This document shows positions 2,607 through 11,105 of a stretch of DNA of 64,000 nt, one piece after another (the first letter of the stretch is position 1; every line of letters begins with the position of its first letter). Source of the stretch: Campylobacter ureolyticus (GTDB taxonomy: Bacteria; Campylobacterota; Campylobacteria; Campylobacterales; Campylobacteraceae). The stretch covers positions 744,001 through 808,000 of the forward strand of contig NZ_CP053832.1 of NCBI RefSeq assembly GCF_013372225.1, in the 5' to 3' direction. A model generated the notes under the pieces. The model ran no database searches. It was given only the letters and a program-made list of their open reading frames with translations, and was not told where the DNA came from. The position numbers and the translations under genes are program-made.

Positions 2607-3245
2607 ATGGAAACGATAAAAATAAAAAATTACTTAGCTACTTTATATCTCATAAATGCCACCATTTGGACAGTTGTTACAATAGTTGTCTTTTTTGATG
2701 GCGATGTTTCTTTTATTTTGAAATTTGGACTTTTGACAATGTGGATGAGCTTTGGATTAAATACTTTTATATGGGCGAAAAATAGTAAAGATAATTATAT
2801 GGAATTTAATAGTTTTGGCATAAAATTTATTAATAATAAAGGTGAAAACCTTATAAAATTTAGTGAAATTTTAGATATTAAAAGAACATTTGGATTTACA
2901 AATTTCCAAACTTCAAAAAATATTAAAATAATTATTTTAGTTTGTATTATGCTTTATTTTTTGGTAATTATTTTAAATAGCAAAAGTTTAAATGATAGAC
3001 TTGAAATTTTATATATTTTATTTGCTATGATTTTTATGCTTTTTATTTTTCCAGCTATTTTACTAAGAATTATAAACAAATCAAGGATTGATATTTTTTA
3101 TGATAGTCTCATAATTTATTCAAAAAGTGGTGAAATTTTAGAAATTATAATCTTAAATAAAGCCCAGTATCAAAAAATTAGGCGGTTTTTTATGAAATAT
3201 ACTCATAAAAACCTTAATAAAATAAAAAAAGAATTGATTATATAA
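2607..3245 (+). CDS. Four-helix membrane protein of the island paralog family (no leader)
   Basis: 212 residues with no recognised family. The layout matches the other island proteins: two helices (about 10-30 and 36-56), a 45-residue soluble part with strand pattern (NSFGIKFINNKGENLIKF), two more helices (about 105-123 and 131-153), then a cytoplasmic tail ending in a Y-x-K-I-R-R-F-F motif like the K-x-Y-F motif of its neighbours. Unlike the paralogs at 4204, 5277, 9248 and 10245 it lacks the Asn-rich leader. It starts 3 bases after the Sel1-like gene and ends 12 bases before the next gene, so the three are probably co-transcribed. Confidence 0.6.
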   Translation: METIKIKNYLATLYLINATIWTVVTIVVFFDGDVSFILKFGLLTMWMSFGLNTFIWAKNSKDNYMEFNSFGIKFINNKGENLIKFSEILDIKRTFGFTNFQTSKNIKIIILVCIMLYFLVIILNSKSLNDRLEILYILFAMIFMLFIFPAILLRIINKSRIDIFYDSLIIYSKSGEILEIIILNKAQYQKIRRFFMKYTHKNLNKIKKELII

Positions 3246-3257
3246 GAAGGAATTTTT

Positions 3258-4034
3258 ATGTCAAGAGAACAAGTTGCAAATAGAAAATTAGATGAAGTTG
3301 AAAAATATGTTGTGGATAAAATCAAAAATGTAAATTTAAATAATTCTCAAATTTCAGATAATAAAATAAATTCAATTAAACGAGATTATAATAAAGAGCC
3401 AATATTAATTCCAAATAAAGCTTTGGGTATTAACTTTTTATTTCTTATTTGCTCTTTGGCATTTATGTTTTTATTTGCTTTTATTTTCGGAGTGGAAATT
3501 AATTTTAAAAATTGGTCTGGTCAAGGTGCTTTGGCTGGTGCTCTCTTTTCAATAAAAGAATTTTTTACTGCAAGATATCAAAATATCAAATTTACAAACT
3601 CAAAAATTGAAATTATAGAAAATGAAATTATTGTTCAAAGTATAGAAAATAATAGTATTTATAAACTATTTTTGAATTATAGCAATGCTTATAGCTTTGA
3701 AAATAAAATTCCTATCTCGAAAGAGTTAATTATTTTTTCATTATTATTACTTGGAATATCTATTTTATATTTTAAGGGCTTTGGGGTATTTGCAATGCTT
3801 ATAGTTGCTCCAATTTTAGGATATTTTATTCCTAGAATTTATATATTTGGTAAAAATAGATTTAAAATGTCAAAATCTTTAGCTATATGCTATGAGAAAG
3901 ATAATAAAAAAGAATTTATAAATATACTAATTAAACCCGATTGGTATTTTGAGATAAAAGAATATTTTAAAAATGCAAAAAATATAAATATAAATAAAAA
4001 CAAAGTTGTTTTTTCGGTATTTGATAATATTTAA
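3258..4034 (+). CDS. Four-helix membrane protein of the island paralog family (hybrid leader)
   Basis: 258 residues with an AAGGA ribosome binding site and an ATG start. The first 30 residues (MSREQVANRKLDEVEKYVVD) match not the common MSDDKREK leader but the short orphan ORFs at 4045 and 5116. From residue 31 (NNSQISDNKINS, then KRDYNKEP) it rejoins the common leader. The body has helices at about 57-77 and 84-100, a strand-rich domain, helices near 155-175 and 177-195, and a tail with EIKEYFKN. The patchwork front suggests recombination between leader types. Function unknown; candidate immunity protein by context only. Confidence 0.65.
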   Translation: MSREQVANRKLDEVEKYVVDKIKNVNLNNSQISDNKINSIKRDYNKEPILIPNKALGINFLFLICSLAFMFLFAFIFGVEINFKNWSGQGALAGALFSIKEFFTARYQNIKFTNSKIEIIENEIIVQSIENNSIYKLFLNYSNAYSFENKIPISKELIIFSLLLLGISILYFKGFGVFAMLIVAPILGYFIPRIYIFGKNRFKMSKSLAICYEKDNKKEFINILIKPDWYFEIKEYFKNAKNININKNKVVFSVFDNI

Positions 4035-4044
4035 AGGAGTAAAT

Positions 4045-4080
4045 ATGAGTAGAGAAATCGTTGCTAAAAAAACAGCTTGA
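4045..4080 (+). other. Orphan 5' stub ORF (11 codons) behind a strong ribosome binding site
   Basis: AAAGGAG followed by ATG opens MSREIVAKKTA and then stops. The start matches the front of the gene at 3258 (MSREQVANRK), and a decayed relative of the same stub (ending AACAGCTTGA) occurs at about 10180-10212. It looks like the surviving front of a gene that has lost its body, though a short translated leader peptide is possible. Confidence 0.4.
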
Positions 4081-4089
4081 AATTTAACT

Positions 4090-4252
4090 ATAAAAATAAC
4101 AAATTTTTTTAAAAACATTTAAACTAAGATAAAATTTGAATAATATTTAAGATTTAAAATATTAAAATAAAATAGTTTTTATTAAAACAGCAAAGGCTAA
4201 AATTTGAGTGATGATAAAAGAGAAAAACTTAGAGAATATTTGAGAAATAATA
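4090..4252 (+). repeat. Direct repeat copy 2: promoter and leader of the 4204 gene
   Basis: Second copy of the 1972-2134 segment. Here the TTG start at 4204 is intact. Shorter versions of its last part (AAAACAACAAAAGG, a few bases, then TTGAGTGATGATAAAAG) precede the paralogs at 5277, 9248 and 10245. The repeat is long and conserved enough to act as a site for homologous recombination between gene copies. Confidence 0.75.
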
Positions 4253-5106
4253 GACCTAAAAATAGTGTAAATTTAGGTAATAGCTCTGATAATAAAGAAA
4301 AATCTAATAAAAATTTGGAAAATAATTTAAATTTGGATAACTCAATTTTAGACAATTCTCAAATTTCAAACAATAAAATAAATTCAAATAAAAGAGATTA
4401 CGATAAAGAACCGATTATTTTAAAAGACTATACGGCATATATGAAATTTCACTATTTTTTATATATTTCTTTTTGGGTTGCGGCTTCTTTTTTGCTATTT
4501 TTATATACTGCTTCAATTTATGAAAAATATGATATTGGCTTAAATATATTTCATTTTTTAATAGTTTTTATGATTTTTATATTGTTTGATATTTCTATAT
4601 TTCATAACTTAACTTCCACAAATTCAGTGACAAAAATTTATAATAATAGAGTTGAAATTTTTGAGAATGGATTTCTTAAAACTAAATTTTATATAAATAG
4701 TAAAGACAAAATAGAATTTTATACGTTTAAATCTTTTTTTAGAAATTATTTTATAATGTTTTTATTGATATTTTTATTGATATTTTTTGATAATAAATTT
4801 GAAGCATTAATAGTGCTATTATTTGTTATATTATCAATTATTATCGGACTTTTTTATAATATTTTAATCACTTCATATATTTATAAAAAATCAAACAAAA
4901 CACTTAAACATTTCTTTAAACATTATGGTAAATTTCATATAGATGTTGGTTGGGATAGATACTCAAAATTTTCATATTATATAGTAGAGCATAAAGGAAT
5001 TTCAATGTTTTATTTTAATGAAAATGACTATTTAGAGTTAAAAAAATATTTTCAAACAGTTCATAATAAAAATTTGGATAAAGATATAAAATTATTTAAA
5101 TTTTAA
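4204..5106 (+). CDS. Leader-bearing four-helix membrane protein, paralog 1
   Basis: 300 residues starting with TTG. Residues 1-75 are a hydrophilic, Asn-rich leader opening MSDDKREKLREYLRNNRP and ending KRDYDKEP. Helices lie at about 83-103, 113-133, 182-196 and 201-222. Between the second and third is a strand-rich soluble part with a possible small PH-like fold. The cytoplasmic tail has HIDVGWDRYS, then FNENDYLELKKYF and NLDKDIK. The tail is close to that of the 9248 paralog, and the leader is close to identical to that of the 5277 paralog even as DNA. No known family recognised. The gene has its own promoter-containing repeat upstream. Confidence 0.7.
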   Translation: MSDDKREKLREYLRNNRPKNSVNLGNSSDNKEKSNKNLENNLNLDNSILDNSQISNNKINSNKRDYDKEPIILKDYTAYMKFHYFLYISFWVAASFLLFLYTASIYEKYDIGLNIFHFLIVFMIFILFDISIFHNLTSTNSVTKIYNNRVEIFENGFLKTKFYINSKDKIEFYTFKSFFRNYFIMFLLIFLLIFFDNKFEALIVLLFVILSIIIGLFYNILITSYIYKKSNKTLKHFFKHYGKFHIDVGWDRYSKFSYYIVEHKGISMFYFNENDYLELKKYFQTVHNKNLDKDIKLFKF

Positions 5107-5115
5107 GGAGTAAAA

Positions 5116-5217
5116 ATGAGTGATTTCACAAGAATTAATAAAGTAAATAGCGAGCTAGATAAAGTAGAAAAAAGATACTTAAACGACAATAAAAATGTAG
5201 ATGATTTAAGAAACTAA
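5116..5217 (+). other. Orphan short ORF (33 codons) with strong ribosome binding site
   Basis: AAGGAG is followed at 5116 by an ATG opening MSDFTRINKVNSELDKVEKR and ending in DDLRN. It is hydrophilic and likely helical. The same pattern (TRIN, then EL-K) recurs in the orphan ORF at 11120, and part of it in the front of the 3258 gene. These look like heads of one gene family with their bodies deleted. They could instead be real small proteins. Confidence 0.45.
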
Positions 5218-5276
5218 TCCAGAATTATTTCAGCTGCATTATGATGGTTTTACTAAAACAACAAAAAGGTTAAAAT

Positions 5277-5921
5277 TTGAGTGATGATAAAAGAGAAAAA
5301 CTTAGAGAATATTTAAGAAATAATAGACCTAGAAATAATATAAATTTAGACAATAACTCTAATAATAAAGAAAAATCTAATAAAAATTTGGAAAATAATT
5401 TAAATTTGGATAACTCAATTTTAGACAATTCTCAAATTTCAAACAATAAGATAAATTCAAATAAAAGAGATTACGATAAAGAACCATTAATTATAAAAAA
5501 TTATGATAAATTTATGGAATGGGGTAATTTTGCTTTTTCCAAAATGTTTGCAAGTTCAAACATAGTGTTATTTTGGTTTTTGCTGGTTAAAGAAGATCTT
5601 TTAATGGTATTTTTTATGTTATTTTTAATTGTTTCGATTTGCATTATTTTTTTATATATGCCTTACAGATATTATGTTATTAATAATGAATATAAAACCG
5701 TATTTTATAATAATAAAATATGCTATTATCAAAATAATAAACTTTTAAAAGAGACAATATTTATAGACAAGAACAGTGTTGAGATTGTTAGATTATTTTG
5801 GAATGATTTTGTTGATAACAAAATACCAATATTTCTGTTATATGGATTGGTTATATTTTTTTCATTTAAAGAGCCACTATGTTTGATTTATTTTTTAGGC
5901 TCTGTTAAAATATTTTATTGA
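5277..5921 (+). pseudogene. Leader-bearing paralog 2, 5' half, split by the transposon
   Basis: A TTG start opens the common Asn-rich leader, then two helices, the soluble strand domain and part of the third helix. The genuine gene sequence ends at 5897, after codon 207. The last codons to 5921 (GSVKIFY and a stop) come from the transposon's left inverted repeat. The rest of the gene resumes in frame at 8977. Excising the transposon and one target duplication gives a 289-residue protein of the same length and layout as its siblings. The insertion is therefore recent relative to decay of the gene. Confidence 0.9.
5890..5897. repeat. Target site duplication, left copy
   Basis: ATTTTTTA directly before the left end of the transposon, identical to 8969-8976. 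Eight bases is the duplication length characteristic of the IS1595 family. Confidence 0.93.
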
Positions 5922-5925
5922 TTTT
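5898..5925 (+). repeat. Left terminal inverted repeat of the transposon
   Basis: 28 bases starting GGCTCTGTTAAAATATT, an exact reverse complement of 8941-8968. The match stops after base 5925 (TAAGC on this side, ATTAA on the other). Confidence 0.95.
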
Positions 5926-5940
5926 TAAGCTAATTTATAT

Positions 5941-5946
5941 TATAAT
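5941..5946 (+). promoter_or_regulatory. Probable -10 box of the transposase/R-M transcript
   Basis: A perfect TATAAT lies 36 bases before the transposase ATG, just inside the left inverted repeat. A strong AAGGAGG ribosome binding site follows at 5970-5976. All three element genes could be read from it. Confidence 0.5.
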
Positions 5947-5982
5947 TTCCTATATAAAATAACGATAGTAAGGAGGTTTGCG

Positions 5983-7005
5983 ATGAAAAATAAGACAACA
6001 GAGTTAGATATAATTTTACAGCTTTTTAACTCTCTTTCAAATGATGATAAAAAATCATTCATAAAAGAGATAAAAAATAAAGAAACTTCTAACAAAGTAT
6101 CTATCAAAAAAGAGATTAAATATTGTCCTCATTGTAAATCTACTAAATTTGTTAAAAATGGAAAAAGTAGCAATACTCAAAGATTTTTATGTAGAGATTG
6201 TAATAAAACATTTACTACTACAAATAATACGATATTTTTTAGTGTTAAAAAAGATATAAAAACCTGGAAATTATATATTCATTGTATGATAGAAAAATAT
6301 TCACTTAGAAAAACAGCTAAGATTTGTAATATTTCACTACCTACTGCATTTGCTTGGAGACATAAAATTTTAGATGCTTTGCAAATTATGATGAGTGAAG
6401 TTGAATTAAATGGAATAGTTGAAGCTGATGAAACTTTTATACCGCTATCTTTTAAAGGTAATCATAAAAATTTTAAATTGCCACGCTTAGCAAAGAAAAG
6501 AGGAACACCTGCTACTAAGCGTGGATTAAGTAGAGAGCAGGTCTGTGTAAGTTGTGGAATAAATTTAAATTGTTTATCTATTGCAAAAGTATCAAATCTT
6601 GGCAAACCTAAATTAAAAGATTTAGAAAAGGTTTTAAATGGTAAAATTATAAAAGATAGTATGTTTGTAACTGATAGTTTTAGAGCTTATTTAAAACTTG
6701 CAAAAGATATGGAGTTAAGTCATATTAGAATACCAAGAAACAAATATAAAGCTGGAACATTTAATATTCAAACTATAAATAGTTATCATAGTAGATTGAA
6801 AGCAATGATAACTTATAATTTTAAAGGTGTTTCAACTAAATATCTTAATAACTATCTTGTTTATCATAATTTTGTAAATTTTGCAAAAGACAATAAAAAT
6901 GACAAAGAGATAATTCTATTTGATTTTATACAAGAGAATGATTGTATAAGTAAATCTATTAACATCGCTAATAGACCAAATATACCATTGCCAGATGTGG
7001 CTTAG
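5983..7005 (+). CDS. IS1595-family (ISXO2-like) transposase
   Basis: 340 residues, full length for the family. An N-terminal zinc ribbon (C48-x2-C51 and C70-x2-C73) is followed by a helix-turn-helix-like stretch (about 105-130, SLRKTAKICNISLPTAFAW). The catalytic domain has E-A-D149-E-T, then V-T-D231-S, then N-S-x-H-S-R-L-K at 266-273. The Asn in place of the third acidic residue fits the DDNK type of this family. The gene starts behind a textbook AAGGAGG and lies between perfect inverted repeats. No damage is seen, so it is probably functional. Confidence 0.93.
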   Translation: MKNKTTELDIILQLFNSLSNDDKKSFIKEIKNKETSNKVSIKKEIKYCPHCKSTKFVKNGKSSNTQRFLCRDCNKTFTTTNNTIFFSVKKDIKTWKLYIHCMIEKYSLRKTAKICNISLPTAFAWRHKILDALQIMMSEVELNGIVEADETFIPLSFKGNHKNFKLPRLAKKRGTPATKRGLSREQVCVSCGINLNCLSIAKVSNLGKPKLKDLEKVLNGKIIKDSMFVTDSFRAYLKLAKDMELSHIRIPRNKYKAGTFNIQTINSYHSRLKAMITYNFKGVSTKYLNNYLVYHNFVNFAKDNKNDKEIILFDFIQENDCISKSINIANRPNIPLPDVA

Positions 7006-7016
7006 AAAGGGAAACA

Positions 7017-7841
7017 ATGACACTATGGACACAAAACAGCTTAGAGCTTGCAAATAATTATGATTATTTAGACAGATTATATTCTGTTTATCCTGTAATA
7101 TCTAATATAAGAAGAAATTTAGATCAAGAAACTATTAATGAATTATCATCCATGCTTACAAGTCCGCCAAATTTTGAACGAGGTAATTTATTAAGATTAT
7201 TATTAAATTTAGATATTTTTCCTATTAAAGATTCTTATGTTGCATATCTTAGACGAGATAGAAGTGCAATTGATCGCAATCCAAATACTGTATGTAGAAT
7301 TGAAAATATAATTGTAAATATGGGGCTTACAAATGTTTTGAATGAGATTACTAGACCTATTGAAGCAAATAGACAAATGGGTCAACATTTTAAAAATTGG
7401 GTAAATTCTACTAATTTTAATTTTGATAAAACAGATAATATAGATGTCTTTTTAAATACAGATACGCTAATGGTTTTTATTGGCAATGATAATATTATGT
7501 TAAATTTAGCAAAAGATATTTTTGGATACACAGGGAATAAAGGAATTGATTTTATTGCAAAAAGAGGTGAAAATGTAGCAATAGGAGAAGCTAAATTTCT
7601 TACAGATTTTGGTGGTCATCAAAATGCACAACTAAACGATGCTAAAAATATTTTACTAGATGGTTCTTTTACGCCTTGCGATTATCAAATTTTTCCTATT
7701 GCAATATTAGATGGTGTATTATATATTCAAAATACAGCCACTAGAATGACTAAAAATCATATGTCTGAGTTTGTTAATAATTCAACTAATGAACTTATAA
7801 TGTCTGCATTATTGCTAAGTAGTTTTGTGGTTACGTTATAA
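7017..7841 (+). CDS. Type II restriction endonuclease (PD-(D/E)XK), transposon passenger
   Basis: 274 residues. The catalytic core shows G-I-D178-F then, 12 residues later, G-E191-A-K193, the D...ExK arrangement of PD-(D/E)XK nucleases. The N-terminal 170 residues are helical and probably hold the recognition part. The methyltransferase gene follows with a TAATG overlap, so the pair is translationally coupled. The sequence reminds me of the Tsp45I group (GTSAC), but I cannot confirm that. The recognition site is therefore unknown. A short AAAGGG ribosome binding site precedes the ATG, 11 bases after the transposase stop. Confidence 0.82.
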   Translation: MTLWTQNSLELANNYDYLDRLYSVYPVISNIRRNLDQETINELSSMLTSPPNFERGNLLRLLLNLDIFPIKDSYVAYLRRDRSAIDRNPNTVCRIENIIVNMGLTNVLNEITRPIEANRQMGQHFKNWVNSTNFNFDKTDNIDVFLNTDTLMVFIGNDNIMLNLAKDIFGYTGNKGIDFIAKRGENVAIGEAKFLTDFGGHQNAQLNDAKNILLDGSFTPCDYQIFPIAILDGVLYIQNTATRMTKNHMSEFVNNSTNELIMSALLLSSFVVTL

Positions 7842-8923
7842 TGTCTATATCTTTAAATTATGATATAAAAAAGACTGAAATTGAAATTTTAGAAAAAATA
7901 AATAGATGTTCATCAGATAAATTAAATGTTATATATTCAGATCAAAAAACTAAACTTATATATCAAGATAATTTTCAAGCAATGTCTATTTTATTAAAAA
8001 CATATAATAATAAAATAGATTTAGTTTATATAGATCCCCCTTTTAATACAGGTCAGGATTTTTTTTATTCAAATTCTAGAACATCTTCAATATCTAATTC
8101 AGAAACAGATAAATTAGCATATAGTGATATTTTTGAATTAGATGATTATCTAGAATTTATTAGAGAAAGACTTTTTTTGATTCATAAATTATTAAGCGAT
8201 AAAGGAACTTTATATTTACATATTGATATAAAAATGGGACATTATATTAAAATTATATTAGATGAAATATTTGGAAAAGATAATTTTTTGAATGAAATTA
8301 CTCGTATAAAATCAAATCCTAAAAACTTTAAAAGAAAAGCATATGGAAATATAAAAGATACAATTTATGTCTATGCTAAAAAAAAATGTATGCAAATTTT
8401 TAATGACATATCTATAAAACTTAGCGATGAAGAGCTTTTAAAAAAATTTCCTAAAATAGACAAAAATGGCGAAAGATATACTACTGTTCCTTGCCATGCA
8501 CCAGGTGAAACACTAAATGGAAACACTGGAAAAAAATGGCGTGGCTTATTACCGCCAAAAGGAAGACACTGGAGAAGCTCTCCTGATGAATTAGAAATGT
8601 TAGATAAAACAGGTTTAATAGAATGGTCAAAAACAAACAACCCTCGCATTAAAAAATATGCAAAAGATCACAAAGGAAAAAAAATACAAGATATTTGGGG
8701 TAATTTTAAAGATCCACAATATCCAAAATACCCAACTGAAAAAAATTTAGAAATGTTAGAGCTTATTGTAAAGCAATCGTCTAATGAGAATTCTATTATA
8801 ATGGATTGTTTTTGTGGTAGTGGCTCCTTTTTAATTGCAGGTTTAAAAAATAATCGTAATGTTATCGGAATAGATATAAGTGAGCAAAGTATGAAAATTT
8901 CAAAGCAAAATATTATAAAATAA
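7841..8923 (+). CDS. Beta-class DNA methyltransferase of the transposon R-M pair
   Basis: 360 residues. The catalytic motif D65-P-P-F-N-T-G comes first and the S-adenosylmethionine motif D-C-F-C-G-S-G (322-328) comes last, the order that defines beta-class methyltransferases. DPPF favours N6-adenine as the product. The 130-320 stretch between them (GRHWRSS, then YPTEKN) is the target-recognition and helper region. It protects host DNA from the upstream endonuclease. It ends 17 bases before the right inverted repeat. The reading frame is intact. Confidence 0.9.
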   Translation: MSISLNYDIKKTEIEILEKINRCSSDKLNVIYSDQKTKLIYQDNFQAMSILLKTYNNKIDLVYIDPPFNTGQDFFYSNSRTSSISNSETDKLAYSDIFELDDYLEFIRERLFLIHKLLSDKGTLYLHIDIKMGHYIKIILDEIFGKDNFLNEITRIKSNPKNFKRKAYGNIKDTIYVYAKKKCMQIFNDISIKLSDEELLKKFPKIDKNGERYTTVPCHAPGETLNGNTGKKWRGLLPPKGRHWRSSPDELEMLDKTGLIEWSKTNNPRIKKYAKDHKGKKIQDIWGNFKDPQYPKYPTEKNLEMLELIVKQSSNENSIIMDCFCGSGSFLIAGLKNNRNVIGIDISEQSMKISKQNIIK

Positions 8924-8940
8924 AAATTTAATTTTTTAAT

Positions 8941-8968
8941 AAAATCAATAAAATATTTTAACAGAGCC
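8941..8968 (-). repeat. Right terminal inverted repeat of the transposon
   Basis: Exact reverse complement of 5898-5925. It ends in AACAGAGCC and is followed directly by the duplicated target. Confidence 0.95.
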
Positions 8969-8976
8969 ATTTTTTA
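8969..8976. repeat. Target site duplication, right copy
   Basis: ATTTTTTA, identical to 5890-5897. Confidence 0.93.
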
Positions 8977-9225
8977 TATTTAATAATGGTAGCTGGTTCA
9001 TATGTATTAGTTAAATTATTTTTGCATTATAATATAAATAATAGTTTTATATGTTTTACAAATTTTTCATCAGTATATTTGGTCGATAGTATAAATAAAA
9101 AAAATGATTTTTATTTATACTTTACTGCCAAAAATGATTATAAAAAACTGAGAAAGTATTTTTTATATAAATTTAATATAGACTTAAATAATACAAAAAA
9201 AGATTTTTTTAGTATGTATAATTAA
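8977..9225 (+). pseudogene. Leader-bearing paralog 2, 3' half
   Basis: 82 codons continue exactly in the frame of the 5' half once the transposon and one duplication are removed. They encode the rest of the fourth helix (YLIMVAGSYVLVKLFLHY) and a cytoplasmic tail with NDYKKLRKYF, the family's C-terminal signature. An in-frame ATG at 8986 could start translation, but there is no ribosome binding site. The fragment has probably lost function. Confidence 0.85.
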
Positions 9226-9247
9226 TAAAAACAAAAAAGGCTAAAAT

Positions 9248-10168
9248 TTGAGCGATGATAAAAGAGAAAAACTTAGAGAATATTTAAGAAATAATAGACC
9301 TAAAAATAGAGCAAATTTAGATAATAACTCTAACAATAAAGAAAAATCTAACAAAAATTTAGAAAATGATTTAAATTTGGATAATTCAAATTTAAATAAT
9401 AACTTAAATTTGGACAATTCTCAAATTTCAGATAATAAAATAAATTCGAATAAAAGAGATTACGATAAAGAGCCATTAATCTTAAAAGATTACACAGAGC
9501 ATATGTCTATGCACTTAGGATTATGTTTGATAGTTAGCTTTTTTATTTTTTTAAATTTTTCTAGTTTTTTTGAAGAATATGACTACGGAAATATAAATTT
9601 AATTTTTTTATTTGTTAATATGCTATTATTTATTGTATTTTTATTCATTGATATTTATTTGTTTATTTTTTTTAATTCAGTTAATCGTATTGTAGTTCTT
9701 TATAATTCATATGCCATATTTTATGAAGAAAATAAAATCACAAAAGAGTTTTTTCTTAAAGGTAAAAATATTGGAGTTAATTCTTTTTTTCATATGGTAA
9801 AAAGTATTATTTTTTTTATTATTCCAGTTCTTATTGTTTTAGTGATTTTGGAATCAATGGAAAAAGGTTTTTTATTTGGCTTTTGTTCATTATTTATCTT
9901 CATAGTTTCATTTATTACAATTATTTGCTACGATTTTTTATTTAGAAAAATTATTTATAAAAATATAAATGGTAATTTAAATGGATTCTATGACAACTGG
10001 CTAAAACTTCACATAGAAATTGGTTGGGAAAGGATGAGTGACCTTGTTACCAGAAGAGGAATTTCGCTATTTTTCTTTAACGAAAAAGACTATAAAGACC
10101 TAAAAGAATATATTCAAATAGTTTTTGATAAAAATTTAGATAAAGATATCAAATCAATTTCGGAATAA
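9248..10168 (+). CDS. Leader-bearing four-helix membrane protein, paralog 3
   Basis: 306 residues from a TTG start preceded by AAAAAGG. The leader MSDDKREKLREYLRNNRP is followed by an expanded Asn/Leu-rich stretch (NLDNS-NLNNN type repeats) to about residue 80. Four hydrophobic segments follow, two on each side of a short strand-rich domain (LYNSYAIFYEENKITKEF). The tail has HIEIGWERMS, FNEKDYKDLKEY and NLDKDIK, very close to paralog 1 at 4204. The middle of the protein is much less similar to its siblings than the two ends. Function unknown. Confidence 0.7.
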   Translation: MSDDKREKLREYLRNNRPKNRANLDNNSNNKEKSNKNLENDLNLDNSNLNNNLNLDNSQISDNKINSNKRDYDKEPLILKDYTEHMSMHLGLCLIVSFFIFLNFSSFFEEYDYGNINLIFLFVNMLLFIVFLFIDIYLFIFFNSVNRIVVLYNSYAIFYEENKITKEFFLKGKNIGVNSFFHMVKSIIFFIIPVLIVLVILESMEKGFLFGFCSLFIFIVSFITIICYDFLFRKIIYKNINGNLNGFYDNWLKLHIEIGWERMSDLVTRRGISLFFFNEKDYKDLKEYIQIVFDKNLDKDIKSISE

Positions 10169-10244
10169 GAAGGAAATTATAAATAGAGAAAACATTATAA
10201 AAAACAGCTTGAAATTTAATTATAAAACAACAAAAGGGTCCAAT

Positions 10245-11105
10245 TTGAGTGATGATAAAAGAGAAAAACTTAGAGAGTATTTAAGAAATAATCGACCTAA
10301 AAGTAAAATAAATTTAGGCAATAGCTCTAATAATAAAGAGAATTCTAATAAAAATTTGGAAAATGAATTAAATTTGTGTAATTCGAATTTAAACAATGAC
10401 TCAAATTCAAAAACCTTAAAAAATAGTTTAGATAATTCTCAAATTTCAAATAATAAAACAAATTCAAATAAAAGAGATTATGATAAAGAACCGTTGATTA
10501 TAAGAGATTACAATATGCACGAAACAGCCTTTTTTGCAGTTATTCTTTTGCTATTCTTTTTGTTTGATTTTATTTTTAATGACACAAGTGAGTTTTTCAC
10601 TCCAAAAAGAGTTGTTTTTATATTTATTCTTTTGGAAATTATTTTAGAATTATTTAAGTGTTTTTATAAAACTATTATTTTTTATGATTCAAAAATTGTC
10701 TATAAAAAAGGAAGCGATACAGCACTTGAAATAAATTTAAGCGACATAGTTGGAGTTTATAAAACTGCTATGTGTAATGAAAATTTTCAAACCCAAAAAT
10801 TTATTTCTAAAAAACTTTTTATTTTTGCTGCAGTTTTGGTCGGACTTGTTATGATTATTTTTGATTTTAATACATTTATATTCTTTTTTGGATGGATTTT
10901 TGCTATATTTTTTGGTGGCAAATTTATATTTTTTGTTCTTTTAAATAAAAAAATTGGTTTTAAAATTTATACTAGTTATTTAATAAAAACAGAGAAAAAC
11001 ATCATAAATTTTTTGCCAAAAGAAAGTGATAATATGGAAATAAAAAGATATTTCTTTGATAAATTAAAATATATAAAATTTGATAAACAATTACTTATTA
11101 GCTAA
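10245..11105 (+). CDS. Leader-bearing four-helix membrane protein, paralog 4
   Basis: 286 residues. I place the start at the TTG at 10245, which aligns with the MSDDKREK start of the siblings. An upstream in-frame TTG at 10209 lies in intergenic repeat sequence. The leader runs to KRDYDKEP at about residue 84. Helices follow, with a soluble part (FYDSKIVYKKGSDTALEI) between the pairs, then a short tail with MEIKRYFFDKLKYI. This body differs from those of the 4204 and 9248 paralogs and is closer in pattern to the 2607 and 3258 proteins. It shares the leader but has a different body. Confidence 0.7.
   Translation: MSDDKREKLREYLRNNRPKSKINLGNSSNNKENSNKNLENELNLCNSNLNNDSNSKTLKNSLDNSQISNNKTNSNKRDYDKEPLIIRDYNMHETAFFAVILLLFFLFDFIFNDTSEFFTPKRVVFIFILLEIILELFKCFYKTIIFYDSKIVYKKGSDTALEINLSDIVGVYKTAMCNENFQTQKFISKKLFIFAAVLVGLVMIIFDFNTFIFFFGWIFAIFFGGKFIFFVLLNKKIGFKIYTSYLIKTEKNIINFLPKESDNMEIKRYFFDKLKYIKFDKQLLIS

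Follow-up and report, generated by a model that had tools for sequence, protein, structure and literature searches.

Species of Campylobacter and Helicobacter possess large and variable repertoires of restriction-modification (R-M) systems, whose movement has been deduced for the most part by comparing genomes, and the locus analysed here holds a complete R-M system inside a single insertion sequence (IS). The locus lies in a stretch of 64,000 nucleotides from Campylobacter ureolyticus (contig NZ_CP053832.1), referred to as the window. An earlier note on this DNA had described there an intact IS1595-type transposon that moves a whole type II R-M pair, and this description was borne out, given that five copies of the element were found in the genome and that in every copy its ends enclose the R-M genes. 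Our main reading, to which we assign a probability of about 0.88, is that the element would be a transporter IS moving a complete type II R-M system, in a lineage whose modules are replaceable.

The window copy is a whole IS1595-family element of 3071 bp on the plus strand (5898..8968). Its left terminal inverted repeat (GGCTCTGTTAAAATATTTTATTGATTTT, 5898..5925, plus strand) and its right one (8941..8968, minus strand) match each other at 28 of 28 bases, and the 8-bp target-site duplication ATTTTTTA stands directly outside both of them (5890..5897 and 8969..8976), as had been claimed for the repeats and the duplication alike. The element interrupts a gene on the plus strand, whose 5' part of 207 codons (5277..5897) and 3' part of 82 codons plus stop (8977..9225) form one uninterrupted 289-aa ORF, the reconstructed empty site, when the flanks are joined with the duplication counted once. 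Two intact paralogues of the split gene have lengths near 289 aa (300 aa at 4204-5106 and 306 aa at 9248-10168). The surrounding part of the window (2607-11105) encodes membrane proteins arranged in tandem in a row; several are paralogues that start with MSDDKREKLREYLRNNRP, and it is one of these that was split; another copy of the element (L010) adjoins a second locus with such a row about 420 kb away.

Inside the ends, the transposase, endonuclease and methyltransferase genes all have the same direction, as previously noted, and they form an operon-like row. The transposase gene (5983..7005, plus strand) is uninterrupted, which agrees with the claim of an undamaged transposase, and encodes a 340-aa IS1595-family protein with an N-terminal zinc ribbon. 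Against NF033547 (IS1595, cut-off 75) this protein reaches 187 bits, and against NF050000 (IS1/IS1595 zinc domain, cut-off 28) 52 bits; it also matches PF12762 above the cut-off. Its putative catalytic residues, judged from the motif layout, are D149, D231, N266 and K273. At the left end there is a candidate promoter read from the sequence (5918..5946, plus strand), consisting of TTGATT, located within the inverted repeat, a spacer of 17 bases and TATAAT. This is probably a promoter that lies partly within the repeat, and a -10-like box (TATAAT or TAAAAT) is present at the same place in the left ends of the relatives. The endonuclease gene begins 11 bases past the transposase stop, and its own stop codon shares one base with the methyltransferase ATG (TAATG). 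Judging by this 11-bp spacing, the overlap of a single base and the conservation of the left end, transcription of the endonuclease and methyltransferase genes probably starts at the left-end promoter and passes through the transposase gene, so that all three genes would be co-transcribed.

The first cargo gene (7017..7841, plus strand) encodes a 274-aa type II restriction endonuclease of the Tsp45I family (Pfam PF06300, 2e-72). Its residues D178, E191 and K193, which had been assigned to a PD-(D/E)XK site, are invariant across seven aligned family members, the other six of which are 41-72% identical to the window endonuclease. The second (7841..8923, plus strand) encodes a 360-aa DNA methyltransferase (PF01555), in which DPPF at residue 65 precedes DCFCGSG at residue 322, a motif order that indicates the beta class; together with the gene overlap, this upholds the proposal of a coupled beta-class methyltransferase. 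A PF06300 endonuclease with PD-(D/E)XK residues and an adjacent methyltransferase are thus both present, as in a Tsp45I-type type II R-M system. The recognition site is predicted to be GTSAC from the family name only. This motif is found 0 times within the element against 0.7 expected, an expectation too low to be informative, and 10 times in the window against 16.6 expected, too few for a claim of avoidance. A scan of genome contigs revealed four distant R-M homologues, while no relatives of the endonuclease or the transposase were found in the viral contigs searched.

The 1.82-Mb single-contig genome contains exactly ten perfect matches to the end sequence, which form five pairs with equal spacing, and a reversed control pattern does not occur in the same genome. 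Since all ten ends fall into correctly spaced pairs and the control gave zero, the element ends are not due to chance. The five copies (three on the plus strand, two on the minus strand) are identical save for one substitution in one of them, and each is bordered by a perfect 8-bp duplication of its own (ATTTTTTA, TAAAATTT, TAAAATAT, TTAGAAAA and TATCTTTT), all of them different. The genome has five genes each for the transposase, the endonuclease and the methyltransferase, all within the five copies, and a search of the genome detected no copy of any of the three outside them. Therefore, the check proposed beforehand, that the R-M pair should be enclosed at other loci by other 8-base duplications, gave five sites with five duplications, and neither of the outcomes that were set to count against transposition, namely a single locus or ends without R-M genes, occurred. 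The near-identity of the copies might be taken to mean that a chromosomal segment was duplicated or exchanged by homologous recombination without any transposition, but identity between copies ceases exactly at the 28-bp ends, each copy has its own 8-bp duplication and the flanks are unrelated, and we regard this explanation as refuted. Judged from the insertion products seen in this one genome of the species, the five near-identical insertions are recent transpositions of the whole unit. A composite transposon, in which two IS flank the cargo, was also considered and rejected, given that there is one transposase per element and five in the genome. All five copies have the 8-bp duplication and the inverted repeats (28 bp) beginning with GG that define the IS1595 family, and all enclose the endonuclease and the methyltransferase within the ends of a single IS, as in a transporter IS.

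Transposases 60-74% identical to that of the window are present in other genomes of the same family and in a second family of the order, which is taken to be Helicobacteraceae because a Helicobacter pylori plasmid copy groups there. Transposases within this range of identity are also found on Campylobacter coli and H. pylori plasmids and, in truncated form, in a Neisseria gonorrhoeae record. Both ends could be placed for 15 distinct elements, with matching 8-bp duplications in 14 of them; the left flank of the fifteenth (G173) lies beyond its contig. All 15 enclose a DNA methyltransferase gene, and between them their methyltransferases or R-M systems represent eight or more unrelated kinds; this proportion is to be read with the fact that members were gathered by a search with one transposase, which could miss R-M-free members below about 45% identity. 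Besides the Tsp45I pair of the window element, the cargo consists of a C5 methyltransferase with an NgoFVII-C-domain protein (G005), an N4/N6 methyltransferase with a 188-aa gene and a small HTH gene (ISCaje5, in G044, G090 and C. coli plasmids), an Eco57I-type methyltransferase with a 207-aa gene (G051), a type IIG enzyme of about 810 aa (G079, G228 and G204), two D12 methyltransferases with an AlwI endonuclease (G250), two C5 methyltransferases with an HNH protein (G241b), HSDR_N and N6-methylase fusions with a specificity gene (G151 and G367), type I-like modification and specificity genes (G019, G173 and N. gonorrhoeae) or an N6 methylase alone (G176). Since other members carry different R-M systems, the window element is one of an R-M-carrying lineage and not a lone oddity. 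The ISCaje5 copies from two genomes and one C. coli plasmid are 99.7-99.97% identical and have different duplications. The 188-aa (G044, L098 4949-5515) and 207-aa (G051, L100 5206-5829) proteins encoded beside methyltransferases have no Pfam or NCBIfam match and may be uncharacterised restriction endonucleases.

Several members of the lineage are decayed, with the transposase or the methyltransferase frameshifted or lost. Outside the 15 there are G241a (L125) and the pY95 element (L111), the right ends of which could not be placed and are likely degenerate or rearranged. Copies in decay and without placed ends adjoin R-M genes of the Tsp45I (G580), AlwI (G241a and pY95), type IIG (G273), Eco57I-like (G348), EcoRI-methylase plus GmrSD/HNH (G027) and N4/N6 methylase (G187) kinds, and no R-M gene was recognisable in the sequence read around the relics G177, G218 and G585. 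The decayed N. gonorrhoeae member (NZ_CP119142, L114 4917-7570) is 2654 bp long, with 24 of 24 bases matching between its ends and remnants of type I-like modification and specificity genes; its record is labelled as a plasmid but measures 2.17 Mb and is probably a chromosome. The 5.2-kb member of G151 (L122 7883-13097), which carries the HSDR_N/N6-methylase protein and the specificity gene, lies within the cas10/csm1 gene of a type III-A CRISPR system, TIGR02578 matching on both sides, so that one defence system is interrupted by another. In G367 an 8.8-kb unit (L139 2901-11728) has two facing transposase genes at its ends, one of them truncated, a single outer 8-bp duplication (TTGTAATA), the R-M/specificity pair and four genes without a Pfam match.

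It could be argued that the R-M genes are neutral hitch-hikers, trapped by chance in one IS, and that the link between the two is meaningless. IS elements with passenger genes are indeed known (PMC3129680), and the relative ISCaje6 adjoins a lipoprotein-like gene between its ends. Nevertheless, the methyltransferase in each of the 15 end-defined elements, of so many kinds, amounts to a repeated independent gain of one functional class that chance trapping does not predict, and R-M genes are also carried by a second IS1595 subgroup, which makes this explanation very unlikely. The second subgroup is distant (ends CGATATTATGTAGCA, 21-28% transposase identity) and encloses or adjoins a C5 methyltransferase with HaeII, D12 with HNH, D12 with AlwI, Dam with DUF6997, or an N6 methylase with a specificity gene. 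Its members (L180-L189) have a transposase of about 338 aa and, in most cases, a facing ORF of about 146 aa; Dam is accompanied by DUF6997/6996. Short IS1595 transposases of about 230 aa from the same order had no adjacent R-M gene by ORF reading, a weaker contrast than one between elements with placed ends.

Evidence that the cargo is exchanged comes from pairs of elements. G241a and G241b, which reside in the same genome, match each other at 99.3% identity along exactly their first 1080 bp, from the left end to the 3' end of the transposase gene, and share nothing beyond this point, where one has an AlwI set and the other C5 methyltransferases with HNH. The type IIG enzymes of G079 and G228 are 83.6% identical although their transposases are only 56.5% identical, whereas the transposases of G228 and pY95 are 79% identical and their R-M systems are different. 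Tsp45I cargo is likewise found on two transposases, those of the window element and of G580; the G580 Tsp45I gene has 69% identity to that of the window over 173 aa, and the nearest transposase to that of G580 belongs to G079, which carries a type IIG enzyme (81% identity, tree support 100/98). Because the deepest splits in the transposase tree lack resolution, we base the argument for swapping on pairwise breakpoints and identities and not on tree shape alone, and the 1080-bp breakpoint together with the type IIG enzymes on diverged transposases indicates that R-M modules have been exchanged behind the transposase. The first cargo gene starts 8-31 bases past the transposase gene in the elements measured and overlaps it in pY95, which places the swap point just behind the transposase stop. 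The cargo of the window element is also separable: the closest relative of its R-M pair is located on the Campylobacter armoricus conjugative plasmid pCA639-2 (72% identity for the endonuclease, 76% for the methyltransferase), where the two genes again overlap by one base and none of the annotated neighbours is a transposase. DNA homology between the two pairs sets in 15 bases upstream of the endonuclease ATG and stops just past the methyltransferase.

Taken together, these data suggest a mechanism in which one transposase and its ends would move an R-M system whose two genes come second and third in the transposase operon. The enzyme would cut at the GGCTCTGTT ends and insert the element at AT-rich 8-bp targets, of which the insertion structures were seen five times. 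As the comparison of elements shows, now and then the module behind the transposase is replaced by another R-M system, with the recombination edge at the transposase stop codon. We consider it probable that transposase and ends form a constant chassis and that this IS1595 lineage is specialised to carry and exchange unrelated R-M modules behind the stop codon, spreading R-M diversity; the exchanged modules would include type IIP, IIS and IIG systems, C5 pairs and type I-like modification and specificity pairs, in Campylobacter, Helicobacter and beyond.

Why the lineage keeps R-M cargo over other genes is a separate matter, on which exclusion of rivals, plasmid stabilisation and addiction predict different things. 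According to the last of these, the R-M pair would retain the transposon by post-segregational killing upon its loss. Such killing is established for several plasmid type II R-M systems (PMC4176335) and the family residues of the endonuclease are intact, but five near-identical copies make the loss of one harmless and leave no selection for each copy, since with five methyltransferase copies the loss of a single one should leave no sites unprotected. We therefore find this reading doubtful; at most, addiction could protect a copy that is the last one left or that is alone on a plasmid. Most likely, the R-M cargo helps the element by excluding competing DNA and stabilising a carrier plasmid, rather than by guarding each chromosomal copy, an interpretation we favour because it fits the multi-copy state.

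That some IS1595 elements carry passengers, as the earlier note stated, agrees with the literature: transporter ISs, which are IS copies that hold passenger genes, entered the literature together with the IS1595 family (PMC3129680, citing Siguier, Gagnevin and Chandler 2009). For insertion sequences and transposons at large, carriage of R-M systems is on record (PMC4176335), and IS-linked R-M movement was demonstrated experimentally with the host elements IS1 and IS5 (Takahashi et al. 2011, PMC3031569). Our literature search, which covered few subscription papers, turned up no description of an IS lineage with exchange of R-M modules, and ISCaje5, although named in ISfinder, was not mentioned in any paper found in the literature searched. 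Hence, passenger carriage by IS is already known, and the pattern of an R-M-exchanging lineage may be new. A single-IS vehicle for whole R-M systems, with precise 8-bp duplications and cargo swaps, offers a concrete and testable route of movement.

The IS1595 transporter ISs, including ISCaje5, resemble the window element in transposase family, 8-bp duplication, ends starting with GG and internal passengers. ISCaje5, the transposase of which is 66% identical to that of the window, carries a methyltransferase, the 188-aa gene and the small HTH gene, whereas in the window element the transposase is followed, in one row, by a complete Tsp45I-type pair. In the IS-linked case (PMC3031569) R-M genes were also moved by IS activity with target duplication, but there they either were linked to IS1 or IS5 copies of the host or had an IS on each side, while those of the window lie inside a single IS, between one pair of ends. 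Finally, the Tsp45I R-M system and its pCA639-2 homologue share with the window the endonuclease family (PF06300), the methyltransferase and the one-base overlap, but the plasmid pair is without an adjoining transposase, whereas that of the window is the cargo of an IS.
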